A stretch of 42,406 bases of DNA from Deltaproteobacteria bacterium (lineage in GTDB: Bacteria; Myxococcota_A; UBA9160; UBA6930): contig VGRF01000034.1 of the NCBI GenBank assembly GCA_016875395.1, positions 1 to 42,406 of the forward strand, in the 5' to 3' direction. Positions 37,147-42,406 of this stretch are shown piece after piece. Position numbers and translations under genes: made by a program. Within the stretch, counting starts at the first letter, position 1. Every line of letters starts with the position of its first letter. The notes under the pieces were generated by a model. That model saw only the letters and a program-made list of their open reading frames with translations. It was not told the origin of the DNA and searched no databases.

Positions 37147-39654
37147 CTAGAAGTTGTACTTCAGCGTGCCGCCCCACATGCGCGGCGGGTTCACGTACGC
37201 GTGATACGTACCGCCCTGGGTCGGCGTGTCGAAGATGATCGAACGGTCATACGTGTTGGTCAGGTTGGTCGACCAGAGGCTCGCCTCCCAGTGACCATCG
37301 GGCGACTTCGTCCCGACCGTCAGGTTCAGATACCACTTCGCGTTCTCGAACTTGTAGGGATGCAGGTTCGAGCCCGTGTTGCGCCGGCCGCGGTACGCGG
37401 TGTTCGCCGACACGAAGCCGACCCACTCCGTCAGCGGGAGTTTCCGCTCGTAGTTCACGCTCGCGCTGCCCGTCCAGGCCGGCGCGTTCGTGATGCGGTG
37501 GTGCGCGATGGCGAACGCCGGATTCGGCAAGCCGTCCCGGGGCGCGGCGAACGGGTTGTTGAGGTTGAACGTGGTGCTCACGTCCCTCCCGTAGCGCGCG
37601 TCCGCGTACGTGATGCCGAGCGTTGCATCGAGGCCTTCCGCGATCTCGAAGAAGGACTCGAGCTCCACCCCGCGCGATCGCACCGACTCCACGTTCGACA
37701 CGATGAAGCCGAGGCCCGTGAACGTGTTGAGCTGGAAGTCTGTGAAGTCTGTCGTGAACAGCACGAGGTTGATGCGCGCGCGCCCGTCCATGTAGGTGCC
37801 CTTGATGCCGAGCTCGTGCGACTTCGCGAACTCCGGATCGAAGCGCGTGTTGTTGATCGGCACCGTGCGATCCGGATTCAGCGGGTCCGGCCCAGCGCCC
37901 AGGCCCACGCAAGCGCCGCTGCGCGGGCGGGGTGTCCGTGCCGTCGCGACCGCGTCAGCGTCGGGCCCATCGAGGATCGCGCAGTCGAACGAGTCTTGAT
38001 CGGTGTTGAAACCGCCGGCCTTGTAGCCGCGCGAGTACGAGTAGTAGACGTTGATGTCCTCGGTCACGTGGAACGTGCCGCTGAACGTGTACGTCCATTC
38101 CTTCTCCGTCGCGCCGGAGTCCTCCCACGAGAGGTTGTTGCAGAAGCCGTTGAGGAAGAAGCCACTCGTGCAGTGCGGATCGTTGACGAACGTGCCGACC
38201 GGAGCGCCGTTCACGGAGCTCGCGGCTTCCTTCGTCTCGCGCCCGAAGCGCGCCCCGACGGTCAGATCGAGACGATCCTGCCACGGGCTCCACGTGTTGT
38301 TGGTGAAGATCGCCCAGCCCGTGGTGTCGATGAACGCGCTGCGCGAGTAACCCTCGCCCTGGGGCAACAGCGTCGGAACTGCGGCGCCGAGAACCACGAA
38401 CGGGGCATCCGCGCCCCACTCGATGCGCGTGCTGGTATCGACGTCTTCGGTGTAGCCGTAGAAGCCAACCAGGTAGTCGAACTGATCGAACAGCGTGCCG
38501 GCCGCGCGAATCTCCTGGCTGAAGTTCTCGAACGCGTCGCTCGCGCCGCCGCCGCTCGGGTTCTGCGGGCGCAGAACGTCCGCGCTGGTGAAGTCGACAT
38601 CCTCCGCGTAGCGCGCGCGGAACTTTCGGTAGGCGGTGATCGACGTGAGCTTGACCGCGTCGAGATCCCAGTTCGCTTCGAGCGACACGCCCCAGTCGCT
38701 GACCTTCTCGAACGGCTCGTAGTTGAGACCCACGCGCCACTTGTTGCTCTCCCTGCCCGATACGTCCAATCCGCGCACCGTGGGCACATCCTGGCCGAGT
38801 CCGCGCGCCTTGGCCGCGGTCAGCACGCGTGCGGCCGAAGCGCCGCCGCGCACCCACACCGCGGGGCAGCACGACTCGTCGCGCTGGCCGTAATCGCCGA
38901 TCAGGCGGAAGTCGAGATCCTCGCTCGGCGCCCAGAGCAGCTGGCCGCGCAGGATGTATCGGTCGCGATGGCCCCACGACCCGTTGCTGTGGAAGTCCTC
39001 GTAGTAGCCGTCGCGGTCCGTCCACTGGCCGGAGACCCGGAAGCCGAGCAGCTCTTCGACGATCGGCGCCGAGTAGCTCAGGGCGACGCGCTTGCTGTTG
39101 AAGTCGCCGATCTCGACGAGCGCGAAGCCCTCGCTCTCGCTCAGCACGGGCCTCTTCGTGATCACGCTCACTGCGCCCGCCGAGGTGTTCTTGCCGAACA
39201 GCGTTCCTTGCGGGCCGCGGAGAACCTCGATGCGCTCGATGTCGAGCAGATCGCTGAAGCCCTGCCCGGAGCGCGAGCGATAGATGCCGTCGATGAAGGT
39301 TCCGACGGCGGCTTCCAGGCCGATGTTGTTGCCCGTCGTGCCGACGCCGCGGATGCGCAGCGTGCCGCCGGCCGACGAGGTGTTGCTGGTGTTGACGTTG
39401 ATGCTCGGCGAGATCTGCGCGAGGTCCTCGATTTCGTCGATGCGCCGCGCTGCGAGCTCCGCGCCTTGGAACGCGCTGACCGCGATCGGCACGTCCTGAA
39501 TGTTCGCCTCGCGCTTGGTCGCAGTGACGATGATCTCTTCGACATCGCGTTGTGCGGGATCCGCTGCGGGCGCCGCGTCTTGCGCGAACGCGGGCAGCGA
39601 GAGAGCGAACGCCGCACCGAAGGCGAGGCTCGACCTCACGAACGAATGAGACAT
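37147..39654 (-). CDS. TonB-dependent outer-membrane receptor
   Basis: 835 aa, starts MSHSFVRSSLAFGAAFALS with signal cleavage after FAQ or AFA-QD. TonB-box-like EEIIVTATKRE near 45, plug domain (DVPIAVSAFQGAEL, SAGGTLRIRGVGTT, IERIEVLRGPQGTLFGKNTSAGAV), then a 22-strand barrel ending in Phe (GGTLKYNF), as needed for Bam insertion. Imports iron chelates, vitamins, sugars or other solutes using TonB energy; the plug resembles the large group common in sphingomonads with unknown ligands. AAGGAGG five bases before ATG 39654. Promoter at 39718-39747; the leader holds a G10 tract and an SD hairpin, described separately. Divergent from the second receptor, with tRNA-Glu in between. Confidence 0.93.
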   Translation of the reverse strand: MSHSFVRSSLAFGAAFALSLPAFAQDAAPAADPAQRDVEEIIVTATKREANIQDVPIAVSAFQGAELAARRIDEIEDLAQISPSINVNTSNTSSAGGTLRIRGVGTTGNNIGLEAAVGTFIDGIYRSRSGQGFSDLLDIERIEVLRGPQGTLFGKNTSAGAVSVITKRPVLSESEGFALVEIGDFNSKRVALSYSAPIVEELLGFRVSGQWTDRDGYYEDFHSNGSWGHRDRYILRGQLLWAPSEDLDFRLIGDYGQRDESCCPAVWVRGGASAARVLTAAKARGLGQDVPTVRGLDVSGRESNKWRVGLNYEPFEKVSDWGVSLEANWDLDAVKLTSITAYRKFRARYAEDVDFTSADVLRPQNPSGGGASDAFENFSQEIRAAGTLFDQFDYLVGFYGYTEDVDTSTRIEWGADAPFVVLGAAVPTLLPQGEGYSRSAFIDTTGWAIFTNNTWSPWQDRLDLTVGARFGRETKEAASSVNGAPVGTFVNDPHCTSGFFLNGFCNNLSWEDSGATEKEWTYTFSGTFHVTEDINVYYSYSRGYKAGGFNTDQDSFDCAILDGPDADAVATARTPRPRSGACVGLGAGPDPLNPDRTVPINNTRFDPEFAKSHELGIKGTYMDGRARINLVLFTTDFTDFQLNTFTGLGFIVSNVESVRSRGVELESFFEIAEGLDATLGITYADARYGRDVSTTFNLNNPFAAPRDGLPNPAFAIAHHRITNAPAWTGSASVNYERKLPLTEWVGFVSANTAYRGRRNTGSNLHPYKFENAKWYLNLTVGTKSPDGHWEASLWSTNLTNTYDRSIIFDTPTQGGTYHAYVNPPRMWGGTLKYNF

Positions 39655-39658
39655 GCGG

Positions 39659-39681
39659 GCCTCCTTCGGGGTGGGGGAGGC
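39659..39681 (-). promoter_or_regulatory. Hairpin that sequesters the TonB receptor's ribosome binding site
   Basis: In the minus-strand leader GCCTCC (39676-39681) can pair with GGAGGC (39659-39664), which contains the Shine-Dalgarno GGAGG. The loop is 11 bases (39665-39675). The C-rich arm and loop (CCTCCCCCACCCC) could instead pair with the G10 tract 18 bases further upstream, which would free the site. The alternative fold is inferred. Confidence 0.45.
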
Positions 39682-39698
39682 GCAACCCGTATGCCGAA

Positions 39699-39708
39699 CC
39701 CCCCCCCC
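39699..39708 (-). repeat. G10 homopolymer tract in the TonB receptor leader
   Basis: Ten G in a row on the coding (minus) strand, 45-54 bases before the ATG and about 10 bases past the -10 box, so near the transcription start. Tracts of this length slip readily in replication. A sequencing length error is possible. Confidence 0.85.
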
Positions 39709-39717
39709 AGAACTCGC

Positions 39718-39747
39718 ATTCTTCCCGCGATCGTGCTTGCGAGTCAA
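39718..39747 (-). promoter_or_regulatory. Sigma-70-type promoter of the TonB receptor
   Basis: On the minus strand TTGACT (39742-39747) and AAGAAT (39718-39723) are separated by 18 bases. The -35 matches five of six consensus bases, the -10 four of six. The expected start is about 39711, immediately before the G10 tract. It lies 33 bases after tRNA-Glu on the same strand. Confidence 0.6.
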
Positions 39748-39779
39748 CACGTTTCTGCGTCGCGGAGGAATCGCGGAGG

Positions 39780-39855
39780 TGGCGTCCCCAACGGGATTCG
39801 AACCCGTGTTACGGCCTTGAAAGGGCCGAGTCCTAGGCCTCTAGACGATGGGGAC
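39780..39855 (-). tRNA. tRNA-Glu (anticodon TTC)
   Basis: 76 nt including encoded CCA (39780-39782). Acceptor GTCCCCA pairs with TGGGGAC, discriminator G. D-arm TCGTCTAGAGGCCTAGGA, anticodon stem CGGCC/GGCCG with loop CTTTCAA, anticodon TTC; T-arm ACGGGTTCGAATCCCGT. Transcribed towards the TonB receptor gene, whose promoter begins shortly after; no clear terminator lies between. Confidence 0.98.
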
Positions 39856-39889
39856 GAGGCCGCTGCGAAGAAATGCCGCGCAGTATTGC

Positions 39890-39907
39890 CGACGGCTTCG
39901 GCCGTCG
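39890..39907. repeat. Hairpin with TTCG loop upstream of tRNA-Glu and TonB receptor 2
   Basis: CGACGGC (39890-39896), loop TTCG, GCCGTCG (39901-39907). A stable stem without a T-run. It lies in the 176-base region between the divergent tRNA-Glu and the second receptor gene and could be part of its leader. Confidence 0.6.
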
Positions 39908-40031
39908 CGAGGCGAGCCCTGCAACAGCGGGAGATTTTTGATCCAGCAGGCGTTTTTAGGTGCAGAATGCCCTCGAGCTGGTTCAGAGTGGTCGGGTTGG
40001 TCGTTCAAACCCTATTCGAGGAGTGACGTCG

Positions 40032-42406
40032 ATGACTTCGCGCGCGTTCCATCGCATCCGTGCACTCGCGCTTGCGGCCGCGCTCTCCACGCCCGCGTTC
40101 GCGCAAGACGCCGCGCCGGCGGCGGATCCCACGCCCGCGAGCCCGCCGAGTGACACCGAGGAAATCGTCGTCACGGGCTCGTTCATCAAAGGCACGCCCG
40201 AAGATGCGGCGCTGCCGGTCGACGTCACGAGCTTCGAGGATCTCCAGGAGCAAGGCGCGCCGAGCATCGCCGAGCTCGTCCGCAACCTCGCGTACACCTC
40301 GGGCAACCTCGCCGAAACGAATCAGTTCGGTGCCGGCGGCGGCGGCCAGGCGCAGGAGGGCGTGCTCACGATGAACCTGCGCGGCCTCGGTTCCGCGCGC
40401 ACGCTCGTGCTCATCAACGGCCGCCGGCTCGCCCCGAACGAGGTTGTCGGCAGCGATCTCTCGATCCTTCCGAAGAGCACGATCGGTCGCCTCGAAGTGT
40501 TGAAGGATGGCGCGGCCGCGCTTTACGGCTCGGATGCGGTCGGCGGCGTCGCGAACTTCATCACGCGCGAGAACTTCGAGGGCTTCGAGATCAGCGCGTC
40601 CGAGCAGTTCATTCGCAAGTCGGACGGCGACCACGAGGTCGCGGTGATCGCAGGCTGGGGCAATGACCGCCTTCACCTCATGGCCGCATTCGAGTGGTCG
40701 CATCGCAGTGAGCTGCGCTTCAGAGATCGCGACTGGGGCCTCATCCCGGAGACCGAGAATCCGCAGGGTGGGTGGTCGAGCATCGCGAATCCGGCGCGCA
40801 TTCTGCCGGCCTTCGACTTCACCGCGAACGGGCTCTCCGACGGCACGGTGCTGGGCGCAGGCGCCGCCGACCCGCAATGCGCGTTTCTGGGCGGCGCCGT
40901 GTCAGGGACGGCCTGCCGCTTCCAGTACACGGCCTTCGACAACCTCACCGAGGAGCAAGACACGTACAAGGCGTACGTCGAAGCCAACTTCGACCTCTCC
41001 GACACGATGAAGCTGCATGTCGAAGGGCTCTACGGGCTGATGGACATGCCGAACTGGAAGTCGTCGCCGTCCTATCCGCCGCAGTCGCTCTTCGGCCCTG
41101 ATCGCTTCATCGCCGCGAGCCATCCAGGCCTCATCAACTTCAAGGCGCAGAACCCGACCTTCTTCACCACGACGGCCGGCGTCCCTCCCGCAAACCTGGG
41201 CGCCTACGCCCTCGCGCGCGCGATTGGTGTTCAGGGTCGCCTGCCCGACGGGACGCCGTTGGCCGCAAAGCGCCGCACGGAGCAGTTCCGCTTCGTCGCG
41301 CAGCTCACCGGCGAAGTCTTCGACGGCATCTCGTGGGAGACGGCGTTCACTTACGCGGAGCGCGAGCGTCTGCTGGACGGTGAGGACACGCGCACCGAGC
41401 GCATGGCGTTCGCCCTCGACGGCCTCGGCGGCGAGGGCTGCGATCCGGTCACGGGCACACCGGGCGTCGGACCCTGCCGATACTTCAACCCGTTCTCGAA
41501 CGCGATCCGTCGCTCGGCGATCAACGGCGTGATCAACCCGCAATACGATCCCGCGGTTGCGAACAGCCCCGAGTTGTTCAAGTGGCTGATCACGGACACC
41601 GCGTCTGTGGTCACGAACAAGGTGTTCGTGTTCGACGGCGTAATGTCCGGTCAGCTCCCGTGGTTCGAGCTGCCGGGTGGCGAGATCGGCTGGGCGGTCG
41701 GCACTCAGGTGCGCCGCGAGGTCTTCGACCTGCAGCTCGCCGACAGCGTGAACCTCGACGTCGAGCCCTGCCCGTTCTCGAACTTCGCGGCCTCGGTCAC
41801 ACGCCTCGGGAACATCAGCGCGGCGAACTTCAACCTGTGCCAGACCGGGCAAGCCAACGTCACGGGACCGTTCTCGTTCCTCTCGGGCACGCGCGAGCAG
41901 GCCTTCAAGCGCGTGGTGTGGGGCTTGTTCACCGAGATCAGCCTGCCCGTCCACGAGATGTTCGATGCACAGTTCGCGCTGCGCTACGAGGACTACGGCG
42001 GGGAGGTGGGCTCGACGGTCGATCCGAAGCTGTCGCTGCGCTTCCAGCCGTTCGAGTGGATCACGCTGCGCGGCTCCGTCTCGACGACGTTCCGCGGCCC
42101 GCCGCAGAGCTTCCTCGCGAACCGCACCACGACGCTGCAGTTCATCCCGCCGACCAATGCGTTCAAGGCGGTGGACGTGGTGGGCAACCCGAACCTCAAG
42201 CCCGAGTCCGCGCTCACCTCGAACGTCGGCGCGGTGTTCGAGTGGGAGGGTCTGTACGCGTCGATCGACTACTGGCGCTTCAACTTCAAGGACCCGTTCC
42301 AGACCGAGAGCGCCGGGCAGATCGTGGCGGCCTACACCACGATTGGCGGGGCGGCACCGGCTGGCAATCCGGCAGGCTGTCAGACGACTCCGACCGCGGG
42401 CGGCTT
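40032..42406 (+). CDS. TonB-dependent receptor, partial (runs off the window)
   Basis: At least 791 residues; the 3' end is missing. Starts MTSRAFHRIRALALAAALS with signal cleavage near AFA-QDAAP. TonB-box-like EEIVVTGSF near 48; plug segments ALPVDVTSFEDLQEQG, GVLTMNLRGLGSARTLVLIN, STIGRLEVLKDGAAALYGSDAVGG and ANFITR. Barrel strands follow, including LRYEDYGGEVGSTVDPKLS and the RGSVSTTFRGPPQSFL and NPNLKPESALTSNVG motifs typical of the family. N-terminal architecture resembles the Gly-rich TonB receptors of gamma- and alphaproteobacteria. AGGAG eight bases before the ATG. Different in sequence from the receptor at 37147, so not a recent duplicate. Ligand unknown. Confidence 0.93.
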   Translation, partial: MTSRAFHRIRALALAAALSTPAFAQDAAPAADPTPASPPSDTEEIVVTGSFIKGTPEDAALPVDVTSFEDLQEQGAPSIAELVRNLAYTSGNLAETNQFGAGGGGQAQEGVLTMNLRGLGSARTLVLINGRRLAPNEVVGSDLSILPKSTIGRLEVLKDGAAALYGSDAVGGVANFITRENFEGFEISASEQFIRKSDGDHEVAVIAGWGNDRLHLMAAFEWSHRSELRFRDRDWGLIPETENPQGGWSSIANPARILPAFDFTANGLSDGTVLGAGAADPQCAFLGGAVSGTACRFQYTAFDNLTEEQDTYKAYVEANFDLSDTMKLHVEGLYGLMDMPNWKSSPSYPPQSLFGPDRFIAASHPGLINFKAQNPTFFTTTAGVPPANLGAYALARAIGVQGRLPDGTPLAAKRRTEQFRFVAQLTGEVFDGISWETAFTYAERERLLDGEDTRTERMAFALDGLGGEGCDPVTGTPGVGPCRYFNPFSNAIRRSAINGVINPQYDPAVANSPELFKWLITDTASVVTNKVFVFDGVMSGQLPWFELPGGEIGWAVGTQVRREVFDLQLADSVNLDVEPCPFSNFAASVTRLGNISAANFNLCQTGQANVTGPFSFLSGTREQAFKRVVWGLFTEISLPVHEMFDAQFALRYEDYGGEVGSTVDPKLSLRFQPFEWITLRGSVSTTFRGPPQSFLANRTTTLQFIPPTNAFKAVDVVGNPNLKPESALTSNVGAVFEWEGLYASIDYWRFNFKDPFQTESAGQIVAAYTTIGGAAPAGNPAGCQTTPTAGG

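Follow-up and report, generated by a model that had tools for sequence, protein, structure and literature searches.

A G10 tract in the leader of a TonB-dependent receptor gene, possible graded contingency locus or neutral slippage product, in a family with homopolymer tracts at receptor gene 5' ends

The leader of a TonB-dependent receptor (TBDT) gene on the minus strand of the window, by which the whole analysed stretch of 42,406 nucleotides is meant, carries a run of ten Gs (G10) that may, with somewhat less than even confidence, be seen as a slippage-prone homopolymer in a family whose TBDT genes have repeatedly gained G/C tracts at their 5' ends. The length of the tract would then differ between cells of the window organism and, if so, expression of the receptor would be tuned in a graded way rather than switched ON and OFF, with hairpin length, a gradual easing of the occlusion of the Shine-Dalgarno (SD) sequence or early transcription as candidate routes. 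The tract with its leader anatomy, the excess of runs of 9-11 in the genome, the enrichment of tracts together with off-frame alleles in the related genomes G002 and G005 and the graded energies at G8-G12 count for such a reading, and the tract-free G002 orthologue, the 29 other TBDT genes of the same genome and a C10 in the rpoD leader count against it. Seen within its family, G10 is a more plausible contingency tract than when taken by itself; it would be a leader-type case of the family habit with at most a graded effect, or else a neutral slippage product.

The receptor gene (37147..39654, minus strand) is an open reading frame for a product of 835 aa with the normal-looking signal peptide MSHSFVRSSLAFGAAFALSLPAFAQ, in which the Pfam domains Plug (4e-15) and TonB_dep_Rec_b-barrel (1e-31) bear out the assignment as a TonB receptor made in the first-pass annotation. 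Upstream, the minus strand holds a promoter-like TTGACT-N18-AAGAAT with 9/12 matches (39718..39747; TTGACT 39747-39742, AAGAAT 39723-39718), a pair that is unique in 39500-40100, where shuffles would give 0.1, and from which the transcription start is predicted only. Direct reading places the G10 tract at 39708-39699 on the same strand, with its first G as the 10th base past the -10-like hexamer and thus close to where the predicted RNA begins. The best predicted partner of the G tract is a C-rich arm (GCCTCCCCCACCCC, minus strand, 39668..39681), partly complementary to the SD sequence, with CCTCCCCCACCCC at 39680-39668 (minus) between G10 and the SD sequence GGAGG(C) (minus strand, 39659..39664; GGAGG 39664-39660), which itself lies 5 nt before the ATG at 39654-39652. 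This succession of elements, as well as the complementarity of GCCTCC (39681-39676) to GGAGGC (39664-39659), had been described in the first-pass annotation and is recovered in full. The run is accordingly a G/C homopolymer of the class of about 8 or more at a gene 5' end, situated between the predicted promoter and the SD sequence, and would be a leader G-repeat if transcription starts where predicted.

The position of the tract narrows the ways in which its length could act. G10 does not lie between -35 and -10 as in a fetA-type arrangement; starting 10 nt past the -10-like hexamer, it leaves promoter spacing unchanged, unlike in fetA, and a promoter-spacer model is ruled out. Equally, the tract is not located in the reading frame past the start codon as in an hmbR/hpuA-type arrangement. 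With the SD sequence and the ATG downstream of G10, a change in tract length leaves the frame from ATG 39654 unaltered, and the earlier proposal of a shift in start choice is therefore unlikely. As neither a frame shift nor a change in promoter spacing applies, the remaining option is an effect in the leader, best likened to the tlpB G-repeat.

A tRNA-Glu (TTC) gene on the same strand as the receptor gene (minus, 39780..39855) has its end 125 nt ahead of the receptor ATG. Since no terminator-like site was found between the two genes on the minus strand, the receptor may additionally be transcribed by read-through from the tRNA. On its other side, a second, divergent TBDT gene (40032..42404, plus strand), identified as an open reading frame with a Pfam Plug match at 40200-40550, runs off the window, so that the tRNA-Glu is flanked by two divergent TBDT genes (window 39780-40040); the leader of this divergent gene (L162) contains no homopolymer tract. 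An Rfam scan of the window returned tRNAs only.

The family habit emerged from the related genera. A search of the relatives for the arrangement G10-SD-ATG matched a second TBDT gene of G002, which led to the enrichment result. In this genome, 13 of the 26 TBDT genes, with 0.15 expected, possess a G/C tract of at least nine not more than 250 nt upstream of Plug (P 3e-21; L137-L148, L097) and in G005 the same holds for 4/16 TBDT genes (P 2e-7), or 5/16 with a 350-nt zone (L128, L129, L151, L152); uniform placement of tracts is assumed in this test, and the excess in both genomes is far too large for the assumption to matter. The G002 tracts are mostly G13-G14 or C14, often in the form CCCCCC-G13-TGG, and reside mostly within or beside signal-peptide codons; taking G002 and G005 together, signal-peptide or N-terminal codons predominate. 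Twelve of the 13 G002 tract genes read in frame, the gene on contig C59 being ambiguous, and on contig C40 (L141) the tract is found between start codon and signal peptide. Three genes of G005, on the other hand, are out of frame, namely those on C89 (G9), C141 (C13) and C155 (C10), where signal peptide and Plug do not share a frame and the receptor bodies are nevertheless open over 1049, 796 and 841 residues, respectively. Furthermore, among 91 genomes of the class a G10 shortly before an EEIVV TonB box occurs only in G002 and G005, with no control matches. G/C tracts at TBDT N-termini in both in-frame and out-of-frame states strongly suggest homopolymer switching of TBDT genes in the family, a signature read from single assemblies, in which long runs may be given with a wrong consensus length. 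The tract genes of G002 and G005 thus likely constitute a receptor phasome in an uncultured family. The variation of outer-membrane receptors by homopolymers, as envisaged in the first-pass annotation, thereby finds support in its general form through the tracts of this lineage at TBDT 5' ends, though not as the flip of an RNA structure.

Tracts in G002 extend to other genes. A G14 tract lies inside an N6/N4 DNA methylase gene on C50 (L210) and another G14 inside an Eco57I/ISP-type methylase gene on C53 (L213), where motif I and the downstream half are in different frames, corresponding to an off state; both are possible phase-variable restriction-modification genes. In a carbamoyltransferase gene on C24 (L201) the two halves around an internal C14 are equally in different frames. 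Genes for exported Calx-beta proteins and a MipA-like gene also have tracts at their 5' ends, and on C58 (L222) a G15 flanked by an AAGCCC/GGGCTT inverted repeat sits immediately ahead of a promoter-like TTGACA that belongs to a MipA-like gene and is a promoter-region tract.

Long G/C runs are rare in the genome of the window itself (4.5 Mb in 96 contigs, G000), with 410 runs of exactly six, 9 of eight, 4 internal runs of nine, 2 of ten and 1 of eleven. Runs of ten are hence confined to exactly two loci in 4.5 Mb, with about 0.2 extrapolated from the 410 sixes and the 9 eights, and for runs of 9-11 the count is 7 observed versus about 1.6 extrapolated from shorter runs (P 0.001), a modest excess of the kind expected if runs longer than eight grow by slippage. 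The chance that a G/C tract of at least nine comes to lie no more than 250 nt ahead of one of the genome's 31 Plug domains is P 0.024, a weak figure under assumed uniform placement. The origin of G10 as a poly-G sequencing artefact was considered and rejected with the tract being internal and having unique flanks. A separate class of G18-G61 runs, mostly near contig ends (C7, C20, C21, C26, C27, C36; L015, L022, L024, L026, L027, L032), may have arisen as artefacts of sequencing or consist of genuine long runs at which the assembly broke off; one member, a G25, directly precedes the start codon ATG of an exported YfiR/HmsC-like protein. The second run of ten in the genome is a C10 between the SD sequence (AGGAG) and the ATG of rpoD, the gene for the main sigma-70 factor (L023 1499-1508, G000 C21), where the distance from SD sequence to ATG in an essential gene would depend on its length.

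With nearly an even chance, G10 is a neutral accident at the long end of this genome's homopolymer lengths, which an intergenic leader can tolerate and which has no selectable effect on expression. The comparison of the nearest relatives, which covers other genera, mostly as draft assemblies, identified as best orthologue a gene on G002 C22 with 59% identity over the N-terminal part, which is also linked to tRNA-Glu at a distance of about 1.1 kb (L081); a tract is absent from this tRNA-linked orthologue (L153). Further orthologue candidates in the order reach at best 34-45% identity or are without a readable leader. Equally, for the 29 other TBDT genes examined in the same genome, neither leader nor signal-peptide region contains a run of six or more. 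The tract therefore does not recur at the same gene, either in the G002 orthologue or at the 29 paralogue 5' ends, with tracts being present at other TBDT genes of the relatives. The C10 in the rpoD leader indicates that G/C10 leaders in this genome are not confined to surface genes, and the stability of the 60-nt leader is not above that of dinucleotide shuffles (z 0.25), the G-to-C hairpin alone being mildly more stable than shuffles (z -1.47). Against a neutral origin stand the low probability of chance placement at a TBDT 5' end in its own genome, the family habit of tracts at TBDT genes and an exceptionally good partner for G10, as the C-rich segment is the best among the 30 TBDT leaders of the genome (-21.7 versus -16.6 kcal/mol for the next). 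In view of the lack of conservation and the rpoD C10, a neutral slippage product and a contingency role are about equally likely.

A contingency role by way of the leader can be viewed in the light of the predicted folding of leaders with G0-G20, performed with and without G-quadruplexes. From G5 on, the G tract occupies the C-rich arm almost completely and holds it at every length from 5 to 14. The SD sequence, in turn, pairs with the coding region with a probability of 0.97 at G8-G10 and 0.87 at G12 in the plain model. When 60 nt of coding sequence are included, the cost of opening the SD sequence amounts to 8.2, 6.6, 6.8, 6.0 and 5.6 kcal/mol from G8 to G12, in these models a small gradient and no switch. 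The leader would conceivably, though improbably, work as a length-tuned RNA rheostat, in which each extra G takes more of the CCTCCCCCACCCC arm and eases the occlusion of the SD sequence by the coding region. If such a rheostat were real, graded and heritable cell-to-cell differences in one TBDT would exist beside ON/OFF coding tracts in TBDT and DNA-methylase genes of the same family.

Length could also act in trans, if a small RNA with a C/U-rich loop paired with the G tract and tract length set the strength of control, as with RepG and tlpB in Helicobacter pylori. The G-repeat has the same placement in the mRNA leader and its length falls inside the 9-12G window of RepG control (PMC8295292); nonetheless, such control is very improbable, as in the predicted folds the C-rich arm of the leader already takes up the G tract and no small RNA appeared in the Rfam scan of the window.

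Still less probable is the RNA switch of the first-pass annotation, according to which the number of Gs decides whether the leader adopts an SD-closed hairpin (GCCTCC:GGAGGC) or an SD-open form. The complementarity exists and the hairpin between SD sequence and C-rich arm is in fact dominant at G0-G2 (0.63-0.69); with G-quadruplexes allowed, the picture is the same as in the plain model up to G14, save for a small SD-arm share of 0.14 at G11, and at G15 and above a quadruplex frees the C-rich arm and the hairpin is back. In the plain model, however, the probability of this hairpin is 0.00 throughout G5-G14, with the SD sequence paired at 0.87-0.97 to the coding region instead, and the opening cost passes through G8-G12 without a sharp change. 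Two alternative folds exchanged by one or two Gs were not found, with equal occupancy of the C-rich arm from G5 to G14, and a flip at G8-G12 is rejected on these predictions, whether or not G-quadruplexes are allowed.

Very unlikely, too, is translation from an in-frame GTG at 39750 upstream of the tract, which would make G10 coding as on G002 C40, since this GTG, although its frame is open through the tract into the receptor and the tract of C40 likewise follows a start codon, has no convincing SD sequence and adjoins the -35-like hexamer, with a strong GGAGG-N5-ATG downstream of the tract directly before the normal signal peptide.

To our knowledge, most examples of homopolymer phase variation of TBDT genes come from host-adapted pathogens. 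The tracts at half of the G002 TBDT genes, clear off-frame alleles in G005 and tracts in methylase genes suggest nutrient-receptor repertoires diversified cell by cell, plausibly directed against phages that use TBDTs. The window gene poses the narrower question of whether a leader tract adds graded control. In the pyrG leader of Bacillus subtilis, reiterative transcription adds Gs during initiation and the resulting poly-G acts on an attenuator. As in pyrG, the 5' poly-G of the window gene would pair in cis with a leader segment rich in pyrimidines; in contrast to pyrG, its Gs are encoded in the DNA and are not followed by a terminator-like site on the minus strand. Coding poly-G tracts in hmbR and hpuAB of Neisseria meningitidis (PMC3786947) equally concern outer-membrane uptake receptors and have their counterpart in the coding TBDT tracts of G002 and G005 with in-frame and out-of-frame states, whereas the window tract, upstream of the ATG, cannot shift the frame from ATG 39654. 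In N. meningitidis fetA, a poly-C tract in the core promoter is phase-variable at 8C or longer (PMC13293289); the window G10 exceeds this length and equally is a homopolymer near a TonB-dependent receptor promoter, but resides 10 nt past the -10-like hexamer in the predicted transcribed leader. The G-repeat in the H. pylori tlpB leader sets a graded response by its length through the small RNA RepG (PMC8295292). The place of RepG at the window gene would be taken by the predicted cis pairing with the C-rich arm. In both cases the mRNA of a membrane receptor has a comparably long run of Gs in its leader, as predicted for the window gene, and the effect expected here would be graded as well.
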